Source: Planctomycetota bacterium (lineage in GTDB: Bacteria; Planctomycetota; Phycisphaerae; Phycisphaerales; UBA1924). From it: a stretch of DNA of 64,000 bases. Of this stretch, positions 20,346 through 29,775 are shown piece by piece (positions within the stretch are counted from its first letter, which is position 1; each line of letters begins with the position of its first letter). The translations under genes and the position numbers were made by a program. A model generated the notes under the pieces. It saw nothing but the letters and a program-made list of their open reading frames with translations, was not told the origin of the DNA and did no database searches. The DNA is taken from positions 62,001-126,000 of the forward strand of contig JAFEBP010000003.1 in NCBI GenBank assembly GCA_018242605.1, read 5' to 3'.

Positions 20346-20816
20346 CTAGGTTCTGTCTGACGGATCATCCGGGGCCAGAATCCGCAGGTACTTTCGGATG
20401 ATGGCCAGGTTCACGAACGACACGAAGCTGGACGCCAGTTTGTCGTATCGGGTGCCCGCGCGGCGGTTCTCCTTGAGCCAGCCCACGCACCGCTCCACCC
20501 GCACCCGCTTCTTGTACACGCGGCGGTCGAGCGTCCGACGACCTTCGTAGCGCTCCTGATCGCTCCGCTGCGGGATCACCTGCTCGATCACGCGATCTTC
20601 CAGCCACGCCCGGATCGCCGGATAGCTGTAGCCCTTGTCCCCGGCGACCCGCAGCTGCCAGTCGGTCCACCGCGGCGGACGTACCCGGTGCATCAACGCG
20701 ACGAACGACCGGCTTTCGTGCTCCTGCCCCGCCGTGACGAGGGCGGCGAGGGGAACTCCGTGACCGTCAACGACCAGGTGGAGTTTGGATCCCCACCCGC
20801 CTCGCGAGCGGCCCAA
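20346..20816 (-). CDS. IS5-type transposase, OrfB part
   Basis: The 3' half of an IS5-family (IS427-like) DDE transposase. It contributes the second catalytic Asp in LHLVVDGHG and the Glu in the VERCVGWLKENRR helix, plus the conserved DKGYSYPAIR segment. It overlaps OrfA in the -1 frame, and the A7 run at 20852-20858 (read as AAAAAAAG on the minus strand) is a likely slippage site that would fuse the two frames into one protein of about 290 residues. The Met at 20816 is probably not a real start. The stop lies at the left end of the element. Confidence 0.88.
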   Translation of the reverse strand: MGRSRGGWGSKLHLVVDGHGVPLAALVTAGQEHESRSFVALMHRVRPPRWTDWQLRVAGDKGYSYPAIRAWLEDRVIEQVIPQRSDQERYEGRRTLDRRVYKKRVRVERCVGWLKENRRAGTRYDKLASSFVSFVNLAIIRKYLRILAPDDPSDRT

Positions 20817-21339
20817 TGCGTGATCTCCTTGGTCTCGGCCCGGTTCTTCGCTTTTTTTGAAGGCCCCGCCGCGGACCGCGATGCACGCACGTTGGTGCCG
20901 TCAACGCACCAGAGGTCCCAGTCGATGTACCCGTTCTTGTCCAACCGGATCCGCAGCGCCTTGAGTACGCGATCAAATGTTCCGTCCTTGCGGTATCGGT
21001 TGAAGCGGTCGTACACGCTCTGCCACTTGCCGTAGCGCTCGGGAAGATCACGCCATGGAGCCCCCGTCCTGAGCACCCAGAGGATGCCGTCGAACATCAG
21101 GCGATGGTCGTTCCACCTCCCGCCCCGCGACTGCTTGGGCAGCAACGGCCCGATCAGTTTCCACTGCGCATCGCTGAGATCGCCGCGTGCCTGTTTGCGT
21201 CCTGCCGTGCTCATGAAAGGCCTCCATGCCAGAGGCCACATCATTCCCGCCTGAGCCACGCCGCGTCGCCCCGCGCGAAACATAATCTCGCCATCAAAGC
21301 GCCGTACATGCGCCGAACGGGAGATCCGTCAGACAGGGC
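20350..21339 (-). mobile_element. IS5-family (IS427-like) insertion sequence
   Basis: About 990 bp with imperfect terminal inverted repeats: left end GTTCTGTCTGACGGATC (20350-20366), and the right end read on the minus strand GCCCTGTCTGACGGATC (21339-21323), two mismatches in 17. Both ends are flanked by CTAG (20346-20349 and 21340-21343), consistent with the TA/CTAG target duplications of the IS427 group. The exact boundary is ambiguous by one to two bases because the repeat and target overlap. It carries one frameshifted transposase gene. Confidence 0.85.
20693..21214 (-). CDS. IS5-type transposase, OrfA part
   Basis: The 5' half of the IS5-family transposase: N-terminal DUF4096-type region LSDAQWKLIGPLLP, the RTGAPWRDLPERYGKW segment and the first catalytic Asp in LWCVDGTNVRA. 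The open frame extends to 21283, but the ATG at 21214 (MSTAGRKQ) is the family-like start. After codons for PSKK the reading frame meets the A7 run at 20852-20858; without slippage translation continues in a meaningless frame to 20693, and with -1 slippage it enters OrfB. Both parts look intact, so the element may still be active. Confidence 0.88.
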   Translation of the reverse strand: MSTAGRKQARGDLSDAQWKLIGPLLPKQSRGGRWNDHRLMFDGILWVLRTGAPWRDLPERYGKWQSVYDRFNRYRKDGTFDRVLKALRIRLDKNGYIDWDLWCVDGTNVRASRSAAGPSKKAKNRAETKEITHWAAREAGGDPNSTWSLTVTEFPSPPSSRRGRSTKAGRSSR

Positions 21340-23217: not shown

Positions 23218-24276
23218 GAGCGGCTTCATCCCAAAACTAGGGCCGTATGGTACATGGTCGGGTTGCGCGATGGGTAGTGTTCGTGTAGCTTATGTTCTTG
23301 CACGCGGAGCGTTCGGTACCAAGGAGCTTCACGGATGGCATCACCGTTCTCGCAGGATTTGAGGTCTCGGGTGCTGGCGGCGGCGGATCGCGGCATGCAG
23401 ACCAAGCATATCTCGGAGATTTTCAACGTCAGCCCGGCGTGGGTGCGTCGCGTCAAGCAGCGCCGACGCGAAGCCGGGGAGACTTCGCCGCGGCCGATGG
23501 GTGGCGCGAGGGTGATCAAGATCGACATGGTGCTGCTGCGCGAGCTGGTCAGGGCGCGGCCCGACGCGACGCTCAAGGAACTGCGTGCGCAGCTGGGTGT
23601 GGTCTGCTCCGAGTCGGCGGTGTGCATGGCGCTCCAGCGTCTGGGGCTGTCTTTCAAAAAAAGCAATCCACGCGGCGGAGCAGGACCGCCCGGATGTAGC
23701 GGAGCGGCGCGAGAACTGGCGTGGGGGCCAACCCGGGCTGGATGCATGCCGATTGATCTTCATCGATGAAACCTGGGCCAAGACCAACACGACAGCACTG
23801 CGGGGGCGTGCCCCGATCGGCGAGCGACTGGTGGCGAAAGTGCCGCACGGGCACTGGAAAACCACATCACTGATCGCCGCCCTGGGGATGGGCGGCGTGC
23901 GCTGCTCGACGGTGGTTGACGGCGCGATCAATCAGGATGTCTTCGACGCGTTCGTCGAGCAGGTGCTGGCGCCCGAGCTGCGCCCGGGAGACATCGTGGT
24001 GATGGACAATCTCTCCAGCCACAAGAGCGTCCGCGCGCGTGACCTCATCGAGTCACGCGGCGCCACACTGGAGTTCCTCCCGCCTTACAGCCCGGACCTC
24101 AACCCGATCGAGATGGTGTTCGCGAAAGTGAAGCAACTGCTCCGCTCGCTGGAATGCCGCACCTCGCACGCGCTTTGGAGCGCCATGCAAACCGTGCTGG
24201 ATGCCGTCAGCTCTACAGACGCCGCCAACTGCTTCCGCCACTGCGGATACTCGCTATGCGCAGACCGAGAACGCTC
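23218..24276 (+). mobile_element. IS630-family insertion sequence (ends tentative)
   Basis: An IS630/Tc1-mariner type element carrying one frameshifted DDE transposase. TA dinucleotides at 23216-23217 and 24277-24278 flank ends that share GAGCG (left GAGCGGCTTC; right, minus strand, GAGCGTTCTC). TA duplication is the rule for this family. The inverted repeats are short and poor, so boundaries are tentative. The transposase frame has no stop before the proposed right end and runs about 90 bases past it, which either means the right end is further out or that the C-terminus is read from flanking DNA. Confidence 0.65.
23335..23769 (+). CDS. IS630-type transposase, N-terminal part
   Basis: The N-terminal helix-turn-helix region of an IS630 transposase: [41 protein letters not shown], then [31 protein letters not shown] in two pieces of similar helix-turn-helix character. 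At the A7 run 23656-23662 (codons for FKK) the frame would shift by one base into the catalytic part; without slippage translation ends after about 35 unrelated residues at 23769. Confidence 0.85.
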
Positions 24277-24367
24277 TAATGCACAGCGGCCGGAGCTACC
24301 GCTCCCGTCAGCTCCGCCCAAACCGGTTAAAGCAATCGTCGCGCCGCGCGATGGGCTACGACGGTAG
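23585..24367 (+). CDS. IS630-type transposase, catalytic part
   Basis: The DDE domain of an IS630 transposase. Catalytic positions are visible: Asp in [12 protein letters not shown], Asp in [11 protein letters not shown] and Glu in [18 protein letters not shown]. Only the part after about 23656 is meaningful; the ATG-like start at 23585 lies in the overlap with the first part and is probably not used. Joining both frames at the A7 run gives a protein of about 340 residues, normal for the family. The tail after [10 protein letters not shown] continues past the probable element end to a TGA at 24365. Confidence 0.85.
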
Positions 24368-27123: not shown

Positions 27124-28653
27124 ATGCCCCCGCTCGTCATCGAAAACCCCCAGTTGCACGCCCACATCGCGGGGGTGGTGGACACGGAGCGCGAGCGGAA
27201 CCTCCGGCGTCGCGGCATCTGGTACTGCGTGAGCATCCTGGGGCTGATGATCTTCAGCGCCGCGATGACGATCGTGGACCTGGGCACGCCGGAGGCGGTG
27301 AGCCAAACGGAGCTGTTCTGGGAATCGTTCATGGACGGCTCGCTCTTCCTGATCCACTCGGTGGCGCTGGCGGCGCTCCTGGCGCGGCCGTGGTCTCGGG
27401 CGCGGCTCATCGGCGGGATCATGTGGGTGGCGGTGCTGTCCGCCGCGGCGATCGTGATCGCGACGCCGTTCATCGACAACAGCGCGCTGATCTCGGCGGC
27501 CAAGCCGGGCGTGCCGGGGTGGTCGGCGTTCACGCAGCAGTTGGTGTGCCTGTTCTCGCTCTTCCTGGTGCACTTCGTGGCGTCGATGTTCATGGCGCTC
27601 TCGGCGCGCGAGGGTCTGTTCCTGCTGCTGGGGATGATGGCGGTCTTCTCGGTGGGCGCTCTCACGCACGAGGGGCTGAACCCCGCGGCGCGGGCGATCG
27701 CGATCGCGCTCTTCCCGTTCGCGGGCCTGCCGGGCTTCATCTGGGCGTGGGCGCGGTACCAGGGGTTCACGGACCGGCTGGTGAGCCGCGAGATATCGGC
27801 GCGGTACGGTGAACTCTCCGACGAGCTGGCGGACGCGCGGCGCGTGCACGAGGCGCTGTTCCCGCCGCCGATCAGCCGCGGCTCGATGCGGCTGTCGTAC
27901 AAGTACGAGCCCATGCGCGACATCGGCGGGGACTTCCTGTTCGTGCGGCCGCTCTCGTTCCCGCCGGCGGCGAGCATGGAGCCTCTGAGCGTGGTGCTGA
28001 TCGACGTCACGGGGCACGGCGTCGCGGCGGCCCTGGCGGTGAACCGGCTGTACGTGGAGCTCACCCGCATCTACGCGTCGGCGCCGATGCCGCACCCGCA
28101 GGCGGTGATCTCGCAGCTCAACGAGTTCTGCAACCAGGTGATGGCGCCCCAGGGCGTCTTCGCGACGGCGATCTGCCTGCAGGCCGACCCGGGCGCGGGC
28201 GTCATCCGCTGGTCGAGCGCGGGGCACCCGCCCGCGCTGCTGCGGCGGGCGGGGGGCGACGTCATGCGGCTGGACTCGGGGGCCACCATGCTGGGCGTGC
28301 TGGCGCCCGAGGAGTTCGACGCCAATGAGTGCATGACGCCGTTCACGCATGGGGACCGGGTGCTGGCCTACACCGACGGGCTCAGCGAGGCCGTGAGCGT
28401 CCGGGGGGAGGAACTGGGCATTTCTGGAGTGCAAGGCCTGGTGAGCGGGGTCAGCGGGGGTGAGCACGGCGCGATCGCGGCGTCGGTGTTCGAGGCCCTG
28501 GCGGCGTTCCGGCACGGCCCGCCGCGGGACGACATCCTGATGGTGGAGCTGGCGCTGGCCGATCCCCCCTGTCCGGACTCCCCCCACATCACCCAAACCA
28601 ACACTACCGATAGGGCAAAAGGGCCAAAATCGAGGTTTGTGCAGCCGACGTAG
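27124..28653 (+). CDS. Membrane-bound RsbU-type (SpoIIE/PP2C) serine phosphatase
   Basis: A 509-residue protein. Six or so membrane helices occupy about residues 30-220, a short linker helix follows (SARYGELSDELADARRVHEALFPP, typical before SpoIIE domains), then a PP2C-like SpoIIE domain. Metal-binding aspartates are visible: Asp266 and Asp270 in RDIGGDF, Asp294 in VVLIDVTGHG, a later TDGLSEA and a final RDDILMVEL. Such enzymes dephosphorylate an anti-sigma-factor antagonist (STAS protein) in partner-switching stress pathways. No STAS or anti-sigma kinase gene is adjacent. The cobalamin-sensor gene follows after 33 bases on the same strand. Confidence 0.87.
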   Translation: MPPLVIENPQLHAHIAGVVDTERERNLRRRGIWYCVSILGLMIFSAAMTIVDLGTPEAVSQTELFWESFMDGSLFLIHSVALAALLARPWSRARLIGGIMWVAVLSAAAIVIATPFIDNSALISAAKPGVPGWSAFTQQLVCLFSLFLVHFVASMFMALSAREGLFLLLGMMAVFSVGALTHEGLNPAARAIAIALFPFAGLPGFIWAWARYQGFTDRLVSREISARYGELSDELADARRVHEALFPPPISRGSMRLSYKYEPMRDIGGDFLFVRPLSFPPAASMEPLSVVLIDVTGHGVAAALAVNRLYVELTRIYASAPMPHPQAVISQLNEFCNQVMAPQGVFATAICLQADPGAGVIRWSSAGHPPALLRRAGGDVMRLDSGATMLGVLAPEEFDANECMTPFTHGDRVLAYTDGLSEAVSVRGEELGISGVQGLVSGVSGGEHGAIAASVFEALAAFRHGPPRDDILMVELALADPPCPDSPHITQTNTTDRAKGPKSRFVQPT

Positions 28654-28686
28654 CATCCAGAGCCGGATTCGGTCGAATCCTGAGGC

Positions 28687-29775
28687 ATGGAGTCGGTCAG
28701 CGTGGAAGCCACAACTCAACGACGGCTCATCGCCGAGTCGCTCCGGGCCAGAGCGCCCGAGTTGGCCGAGGCGCTCGCGCGCCGCCTCATCGCGGATCAT
28801 CCGGGGTTGGAGTCGCGGTACGCACCGCTGCCCGTCGACAAGTGGGCGGAGCATTACATGGGGCGGTTGTGCGATCTGGCCGCGGCGATCGACGCCGACG
28901 CGCCGGCCGTCTTCGCGACGCAGGTGGGTTGGGCCAAGGCCGCGTTCTGCGCGCGGGGCGTGCCGATCTCCGATCTTGAAGCCTGCCTTGACACGCTCGC
29001 GGCGGTTCTGCCGGCCGAGCTTGATCCTTCGGACACGGGGCTGATACACACGTTCCTCACGGCGGGCCGCGATGTGCTCCGCACGCCGCCGGAAACTCCT
29101 TGCCCCGCGCTCTCGGTGTGCACGCCGCAGGGACGGCTGGGCGGCGAGTATCTGCTGGCGCTGCTGGAGGGCGACCGGATCCGGGCGGCGACGCTCGTGC
29201 TGGACGCCGTGAAGAACGGCCTGAGCGTGCAGGACGCGTATCTCAATGTGTTCGCGCCGGTGCAGCGCGAGGTGGGACGCATGTGGCACCTGGGCGAGAT
29301 CTCGGTGGCCGAGGAGCACTTCGCCACCGCCACCACGCAGATCGTGATGTCGCAGGTGGCCATGCACGCCGTGCGCCGCCCGCCCAACGGGTTCAGCGTG
29401 CTCGCGGCGTCGCCCGAGCTCAACAGCCACGAGATGGGCATCCGCATCGTCGCCGATTTCTTCGAGTTCGCCGGGTGGCGCGTGATCTTCCTGGGGTGCA
29501 ACATCCCCGCGGCGGACATCGCGCGGGCGGCGATCGAGTTCAACGTCGATCTGGTCGCGCTCTCGGCGATGCTCCCGACACACCTGTGCCCGATCGAGGA
29601 CGCCATCCGGCAGATCCGCGAGTTGTGCGCCGGGTCTCCCAGGCCGCGGATCATCGTCGGCGGCAAGGGTTTCGAGAGCTGCCCCAGCGTCTGGAAGAGC
29701 ATCGGCGCCGACGGGTGCGCGATGGACGCCCCGGGCGCGGTGCAGCTGGGCGCGTCGCTGGTGGCCGGGATGTGA
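28687..29775 (+). CDS. Stand-alone CarH-like cobalamin-binding sensor protein
   Basis: A 362-residue cytoplasmic protein. The N-terminal helical region (about 1-125) resembles RsbR/RsbRD-type sensor domains of partner-switching regulators. A helical cobalamin cap follows (about 140-225) with the Trp-x9-Glu-His motif of CarH photoreceptors: Trp200, Glu210, His211, and His201 next to the Trp as in CarH. A Rossmann B12 domain follows (about 230-360) with NSHEMG at 246-251, His248 being the lower axial ligand; the family usually has Asp where Asn246 stands. GGKGFE closes the site. There is no DNA-binding domain, unlike CarH itself. The short gap to the RsbU-type phosphatase gene suggests co-transcription and a shared signal pathway. 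Confidence 0.85.
   Translation: MESVSVEATTQRRLIAESLRARAPELAEALARRLIADHPGLESRYAPLPVDKWAEHYMGRLCDLAAAIDADAPAVFATQVGWAKAAFCARGVPISDLEACLDTLAAVLPAELDPSDTGLIHTFLTAGRDVLRTPPETPCPALSVCTPQGRLGGEYLLALLEGDRIRAATLVLDAVKNGLSVQDAYLNVFAPVQREVGRMWHLGEISVAEEHFATATTQIVMSQVAMHAVRRPPNGFSVLAASPELNSHEMGIRIVADFFEFAGWRVIFLGCNIPAADIARAAIEFNVDLVALSAMLPTHLCPIEDAIRQIRELCAGSPRPRIIVGGKGFESCPSVWKSIGADGCAMDAPGAVQLGASLVAGM

Follow-up and report, generated by a model that had tools for sequence, protein, structure and literature searches.

A gene in the window, by which we mean the whole 64,000-nucleotide stretch analysed here, probably encodes a stand-alone photocobilin-type light sensor, in which a photoglobin domain precedes a B12-binding domain and whose output would pass by protein contact, an ECF sigma factor with its RskA-type anti-sigma factor being the likeliest target in the family. 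We put the probability of this reading at roughly 70%. Both domains, their fold, the residues of the adenosyl pocket and the lower-ligand histidine are established in the protein. Its open reading frame (28687-29775, plus strand, 362 aa) is present as the earlier note described it, in a genome of 4.98 Mb on 32 contigs that is 86.6% complete and in which a genome search also found an adenosyltransferase gene. The nearest named relative of the protein, at 48% identity, belongs to a Phycisphaerales MAG (L006).

Domain architecture

28687-29775, plus strand: photocobilin-type protein, photoglobin and B12-binding domain, 362 aa
28714-29091, plus strand: N-terminal photoglobin or phycobiliprotein-like domain, residues 10-135 (profile A2 against the PDB, and its own model)
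29149-29352, plus strand: B12-binding four-helix cap, PF02607, residues 155-222 (Pfam)
29398-29733, plus strand: B12-binding Rossmann domain, PF02310, residues 238-349 (Pfam; Z 27.2 to 8j2w)

A Pfam scan of the protein returned PF02607 (2.9e-15) and PF02310 (5.1e-21), at scores so far over the cut-off that the domain assignment is not due to chance. These B12-binding domains were the only matches, and no DNA-binding domain was among them, which upholds the earlier description of a stand-alone CarH-like B12 sensor that lacks one. Modelled as a whole, the protein reached a pLDDT of 95.5 and a pTM of 0.91. The best PDB matches of the B12 half by sequence are photocobilins (6.5e-25; 1.8e-52 with a profile), and in a structure search this half matched 8j2w, the crystal structure of SasPcob, with an rmsd of 1.8 over 208 residues at the Z score listed above, CarH chains following at Z ~21. 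With the CarH equivalog model, whose cut-off is 400, the protein scored 72 bits.

Because this first structure search spanned the B12 half only, the N-terminal domain was modelled separately, with a pLDDT of 97.1. The resulting model matched allophycocyanin (Z 16.6, rmsd 2.1, 123 residues), the biliverdin-binding smURFP (Z 16.3) and the globin of SasPcob (Z 15.6, 29% identity). Middling Z scores between helical folds can arise by chance, and independent support comes from sequence: a profile of 37 relatives (A2), run against the PDB, found the SasPcob bilin domain at 1.4e-10, AbPcob at 1.8e-6 and allophycocyanin beta at 2.7e-4. In Pfam the N-terminal domain of the protein itself has no match, and PF00502 (Phycobilisome) is matched in this region by 3 of the 37 aligned relatives. 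Judged by profile match and modelled fold together, the helical N-terminus belongs to the phycobilin-type photoglobins, and the resemblance to RsbR-type sensors that the earlier note had seen there is not supported. An RsbR-type stressosome sensor would have a STAS domain at its C-terminus, whereas Pfam gives B12 domains only. The nearest matches of the globin in both profile and structure searches are photocobilin and phycobiliprotein globins; RsbR was not among the PDB matches listed for it, an absence that carries no evidential weight. The RsbR globin, which served as outgroup to photoglobins and phycobiliproteins in the available text of PMC10151467, would be at most a distant cousin of this domain.

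A photoglobin N-terminus joined to a B12 domain gives the protein a photocobilin-type dual-chromophore architecture. SasPcob from Saccharothrix syringae (PDB 8J2W and 8J2X; PMC10979010) matches our protein in both domains, in sequence as well as in fold, likewise has no output domain, and shares with it the Trp, the EH, the lower-ligand His and the equivalent of Trp296, but its domain order is reversed relative to ours, where the globin comes first. Both domains are also shared with AbDPcob/AbPcob, a photocobilin-diguanylate cyclase (PDB 8J2Y), from which our protein differs in having no fused GGDEF domain and, again, the reversed domain order. With CarH/LitR (TtCarH, PDB 5C8A) it has in common the Trp, the His132 equivalent, the EH and the lower-ligand His, yet it lacks the MerR-type DNA-binding domain of those proteins (no Pfam match) and carries a photoglobin in its place. 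Photoglobins, photoglobin-B12 proteins included, are reportedly the subject of Schneider et al. 2022. That paper is cited by both PMC10979010 and PMC10151467, and the available portions of PMC10979010 describe stand-alone as well as fused photocobilins and divide them into three groups, according to whether the B12 domain is N- or C-terminal and whether an output domain is present or absent. The globin-B12 order without an output domain is thus a group already in print, and on its sequence and model our protein is a further example of a photocobilin-type architecture that has been described before.

Predicted cobalamin and bilin sites

28852-28854, plus strand: His56, aligned with SasPcob Asp270; His in AbPcob too (alignments)
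28930-28932, plus strand: Trp82, aligned with SasPcob Trp296; W in 48/48 (alignment)
29284-29289, plus strand: Trp200 (adenosyl stacking) and His201 (equivalent of TtCarH His132); W in 48/48, H in 41/48
29314-29319, plus strand: Glu210-His211, EH motif, part of both adenosyl pocket and dimer interface; 48/48 and 47/48
29419-29430, plus strand: L245-N246-S247-H248 with lower-ligand His248; GxxH and E/DxH absent; G245 in 42/48

Residues were counted over 48 full-length sequences, 45 from the 201 genomes of the order (our own included) and three more; alignments A1 (n=36) and A2 (n=37) were drawn from these 48, with long, truncated or near-identical sequences omitted. Trp200, His201, Glu210, His211 and His248, which the earlier note had read as a Trp-x9-Glu-His motif with its adjacent and lower-ligand histidines, were all found where it had placed them. 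Besides Trp200 and Glu210, His248, Gly197 and Gly270 are present in 48/48 relatives; Pro274, like His211, occurs in 47/48, His201 is kept in 41/48, and the Gly at position 245, which is Leu in our protein, in 42/48. Position 246 is Asp in 27 relatives, Asn in 17 and Glu in 4, so that Asn is common there, and the earlier observation that Asn246 occupies the place of the Asp in DxHxxG proved correct.

The roles of the Trp in adenosyl stacking and of His132 as the bis-His light ligand are given in the available text of PMC10442372 and PMC11796333; in TtCarH, His132 follows directly after the Trp, becomes the second ligand in the light and is required for break-up of the tetramer (PMC10442372). 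By alignment, His201 is kept in our protein and is missing from both characterised photocobilins, with Gln at this position in SasPcob and Tyr in AbDPcob (PMC11796333). Across the larger set of 81 aligned sequences introduced below, position 201 is His in 54; it is Q, Q and E in the three relatives with a GGDEF neighbour and Q, E and Q in three fusions to a histidine kinase.

The light-responsive CBD signature derived with SignatureFinder consists of GxxW, EH, GxxH and GxxxP (PMC11796333, in the portion available). Our protein has GxxW (G197-W200), EH (E210-H211) and GxxxP (G270-P274), with LNSH in place of GxxH where SasPcob has GEWH; the W-x9/10-EH motif of photocobilins is also present (W200, E210-H211). 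At the lower ligand, E/DxH is reported for SasPcob and AbPcob (PMC10979010), where our protein has NxH. We use the label photocobilin-type, rather than photocobilin, because E/DxH is lacking and its status as a family-defining motif is uncertain. Since GxxH is broken and Asn stands at position 246, while near relatives mostly have Gly245, this copy could have a lower affinity for cobalamin or a weaker response to light.

At the bilin site, His56 falls at the position of SasPcob Asp270, a pairing for which the numbering offset was derived by hand from the Trp, Glu and His of the B12 half. According to the available text of PMC10979010, Asp270 is the main biliverdin contact of SasPcob, Trp296 touches both ring D of the bilin and the corrin, and AbPcob, which like our protein has a His at the main bilin position, binds biliverdin weakly. 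The Trp82 position is W in 79 of the 81 aligned sequences, the remaining two being partial sequences at contig ends. A search for heme oxygenase (PF01126) gave no match in our genome at its 86.6% completeness, and the domain is present in a same-genus carrier (G167). In the order, heme oxygenase showed no association with carriage of a photocobilin (14/45 carriers vs 67/156 non-carriers, Fisher p 0.17), and by eye the identity of residue 56 did not correspond to heme-oxygenase presence. Since the main bilin position is occupied by His and the search for heme oxygenase gave no match, the protein probably binds biliverdin weakly or not at all, and we would expect a cobalamin photochemistry, possibly CarH-like, in which the bilin is optional or lost.

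Gene neighbourhoods at the locus and across Planctomycetota

27124-28653, plus strand: SpoIIE/RsbU-type PPM phosphatase, 509 aa, PPM domain residues 288-475 (PF07228 9.7e-32)
28558-28686, plus strand: low-GC3 tail of the phosphatase ORF and 33-nt gap (GC3; promoter and terminator scan)

The gene preceding the sensor encodes a membrane RsbU/SpoIIE phosphatase, as the earlier note had recognised. Hydropathy predicts six TM segments (residues 35-209) ahead of the PPM motifs, of which GGD, DVTGHG, GHPP, YTDG and DDI are all present, and judged by these motifs the membrane PPM phosphatase looks catalytically intact. The membrane half showed no resemblance to the GGDEF proteins that neighbour other photocobilins. 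The gap of 33 bases noted earlier holds as the spacing of the ORFs, but the final ~30 codons of its ORF (28558-28650) have a GC3 of 0.68 vs 0.96 in the body and fall outside most homologue alignments, which puts the conserved phosphatase end ~130 nt from the sensor start and leaves the true spacing uncertain. A real gene end or a junction may sit upstream of this tail. No sigma-70 promoter or terminator match was found in 28558-28686. Further upstream in the window lie two transposase-like genes (20346-21283 and 23335-24367), each spread by eye over two overlapping frames, which we take to be IS5-like and IS630-like.

Whether the two genes are conserved together, a point the earlier note had wished to see checked, was answered in the negative. 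In the order, 117 of the 201 genomes carry a phosphatase homologue (E 1e-20 or better), and among those listed the one at our own locus is the only neighbour of a photocobilin; neither this comparison of homologue positions for the two proteins nor phmmer with the phosphatase on six-frame ORFs of the 47 other loci revealed a conserved pairing. An HMM built from 16 SpoIIE sequences placed a SpoIIE gene near 1 of 81 photocobilin loci, our own (1/48 in the order set, 0/33 in the phylum set). The genome has 10 SpoIIE genes, nine STAS matches and three HATPase_c_2 matches over the cut-off, including HATPase-STAS pairs, so the parts of a partner switch exist for the phosphatase to feed. The proposal that light enters a partner-switching pathway thus has STAS and HATPase_c_2 genes elsewhere in the genome on its side and lacks a conserved gene pair. 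Nor is an SpoIIE output a new idea, since STAS, SpoIIE and PP2C phosphatases are predicted partners of SasPcob in the available text of PMC10979010. Signalling from light to SpoIIE at this locus is possible, and the evidence for it is adjacency, not conservation.

The 81 loci comprise 48 from the order set and 33 from the phylum set, both of which are samples rather than all species. In the order, 45 of the 201 genomes carry both halves of the protein, and their E-values are clearly separated from those of B12-only matches. In the phylum set 41 of 392 genomes match at E 1e-25, and 33 of the 36 rows from outside the order were fetched, the three left out (G269, G249 and G303) matching in the B12 half only. 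Neighbours were taken from mechanical ORFs and counted only on an HMM or Pfam match; the HMMs were seeded from order loci, so that seeds and counts are independent in the phylum set but not in the order set.

An ECF sigma factor lies within 2 kb at 22/81 loci (4/48 order, 18/33 phylum), an RskA-type anti-sigma factor at 13/81 (4/48, 9/33) and a fasciclin gene also at 13/81 (4/48, 9/33), all of them lower bounds, since several loci end at contig ends. Beyond 2 kb, ECF matches fell at two of the loci in the order set and at none in the phylum set. The ECF-linked loci are L043, L048, L065 and L073, together with part of L153-L182. Pfam recovered sigma-70 regions in 4/4 ECF seeds, RskA_C in 2/4 anti-sigma calls (the short ORFs of L065 and L073 had no Pfam match), fasciclin in two of the seeds scanned and GGDEF in 3/3. 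A control of 14 stretches around SpoIIE homologues and our genome's own STAS and HATPase genes gave no ECF, RskA or fasciclin match.

Other outputs were also seen. A GGDEF neighbour occurs at 3/48 order loci and 0/33 phylum loci, each time directly after a separate photocobilin gene (L008:5923-6939, L052:2937-4037 and L077:7840-8946), an arrangement resembling an unfused AbDPcob; these photocobilins have no His201 equivalent. At 3/33 phylum loci the photocobilin is part of a fusion protein of ~800 residues that also contains HisKA, HATPase and receiver domains (L166:4663-7044, L167:5986-8394 and L171:1024-3417). Two more neighbour clusters are shared by 6/33 phylum loci (L161, L175, L178, L179, L181 and L182); the one representative scanned from each was a cyclopropane-synthetase-like methyltransferase and a DUF1365 protein. 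In Rhodobacter, genes of these two types are members of the sigma-E/ChrR regulon for light stress. L175 additionally has a fatty-acid desaturase. Many longest-ORF neighbours look like wrong-frame ORFs, being arginine-rich and without a Pfam match, and were not counted, and GH15 and other neighbours shared within a single family of the order (f2) look like lineage synteny.

By HMM, genes for ECF, RskA and fasciclin proteins are all missing from our own window. Elsewhere in the genome, on contig C4 (L191:7102-8510), there is an ECF-RskA pair of the same subfamily (HMM 9.9e-59 and 8.5e-35), with no photocobilin or fasciclin match in the stretch around it; this pair might be targeted in trans. In its main text, as available, PMC10979010 makes no mention of ECF, anti-sigma, extracytoplasmic, histidine kinase, fasciclin or Planctomyc-, and that of PMC11796333 none of ECF, Planctomyc- or SpoIIE. 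Signalling from light to an ECF sigma/anti-sigma pair is a better-supported theme of the family than signalling from light to SpoIIE, though not at our own locus.

Proposed mechanism and alternative readings

In the dark, the protein would dimerise, with adenosylcobalamin held where the helix cap faces the Rossmann fold; green light would then break the Co-C bond, adenosine would leave and the dimer would be altered. With His201 retained, ligation in the light may be of the bis-His kind found in CarH, whereas SasPcob has water as the ligand. The globin is predicted to cap the corrin through Trp82, with a role in this protein that may be mainly structural or allosteric. Output would run through protein-protein contact, as demonstrated in vitro for other photocobilins, which change DGC activity when added in trans (PMC10979010, available text). 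The recurrence of an ECF sigma factor with an RskA-type anti-sigma factor as neighbour makes this the likeliest target class in the family, although such linkage is a minority in our own order (4/48), which counts against an ECF output. In our own genome the adjacent SpoIIE phosphatase may serve as a local target, feeding a STAS/HATPase partner switch.

A reading that gives the phosphatase the leading role, in which sensor and SpoIIE gene form an operon and the light or the dark form activates the phosphatase to dephosphorylate a STAS anti-anti-sigma factor, strikes us as rather unlikely, though it is the strongest of the alternatives. The two genes share a strand, with 33 nt and no terminator match between them, the PPM motifs are intact, and with only 10 SpoIIE genes a chance adjacency would be rare, by our estimate roughly 1-2 per thousand genes. 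The nine STAS and three HATPase_c_2 matches, some as HATPase-STAS pairs, could supply the switch, SpoIIE and STAS proteins are predicted partners of SasPcob (PMC10979010), and coiled-coil linker control has been proposed as common to PPM phosphatases and GGDEF enzymes (PMC12143880, in its available part). The arrangement is nevertheless confined to 1/81 loci and absent from both same-genus relatives, the phosphatase homologues in 117/201 genomes sit elsewhere, the conserved phosphatase end lies ~130 nt upstream, and the transposase-like genes a few kb upstream mean that the gene order may be recent.

Less probable still is a sensor of cobalamin level or redox state that reports adenosylcobalamin supply and for which light is incidental. 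The broken GxxH, Asn246 and the lack of a heme oxygenase match in the genome would suit such a sensor, and in principle any B12 photosensor responds to B12 supply too; against this, the protein retains the bis-His ligand as well as the Trp, Glu and His that belong to the adenosyl pocket, and the nearest solved homologues are proven photoreceptors. We consider it quite improbable that our copy is a photocobilin losing its function, perhaps after parting from a former partner: Leu245, where 42/48 relatives have Gly, and the missing ECF partner nearby point that way, but the ORF is intact, every other pocket residue is kept and the model has a pLDDT of 95.5. A corrinoid methyl-carrier protein of the MtgC/MtbC type, which would be no sensor at all, is scarcely credible, as the NCBIfam matches to MtgC that suggest it reach 43 bits, far under cut-offs of 310-370 bits, and it is opposed by the photoglobin domain, the Trp and EH motifs and the photocobilins found as best matches.

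Taken as a photocobilin-type light sensor acting by contact, the protein invites a wider proposal, which we offer tentatively and with the balance somewhat against it: that stand-alone globin-B12 photocobilins of Planctomycetota may be exchangeable light-input subunits, attached mostly to ECF/RskA pairs (with fasciclin and lipid-modification genes), sometimes to diguanylate cyclases or fused histidine kinases and here to a membrane SpoIIE phosphatase, and that those forms of the phylum in which His201 is retained may have a CarH-like bis-His light state, unlike both characterised photocobilins. The SpoIIE pair by itself is the arrangement of one genome. PMC10979010, which defined photocobilins, describes in its available text what the stand-alone ones do as 'less clear', and the recurrent ECF/anti-sigma/fasciclin neighbourhood in Planctomycetota provides a concrete target class for them, while the retained His201 bears on whether bis-His ligation operates in a photocobilin.
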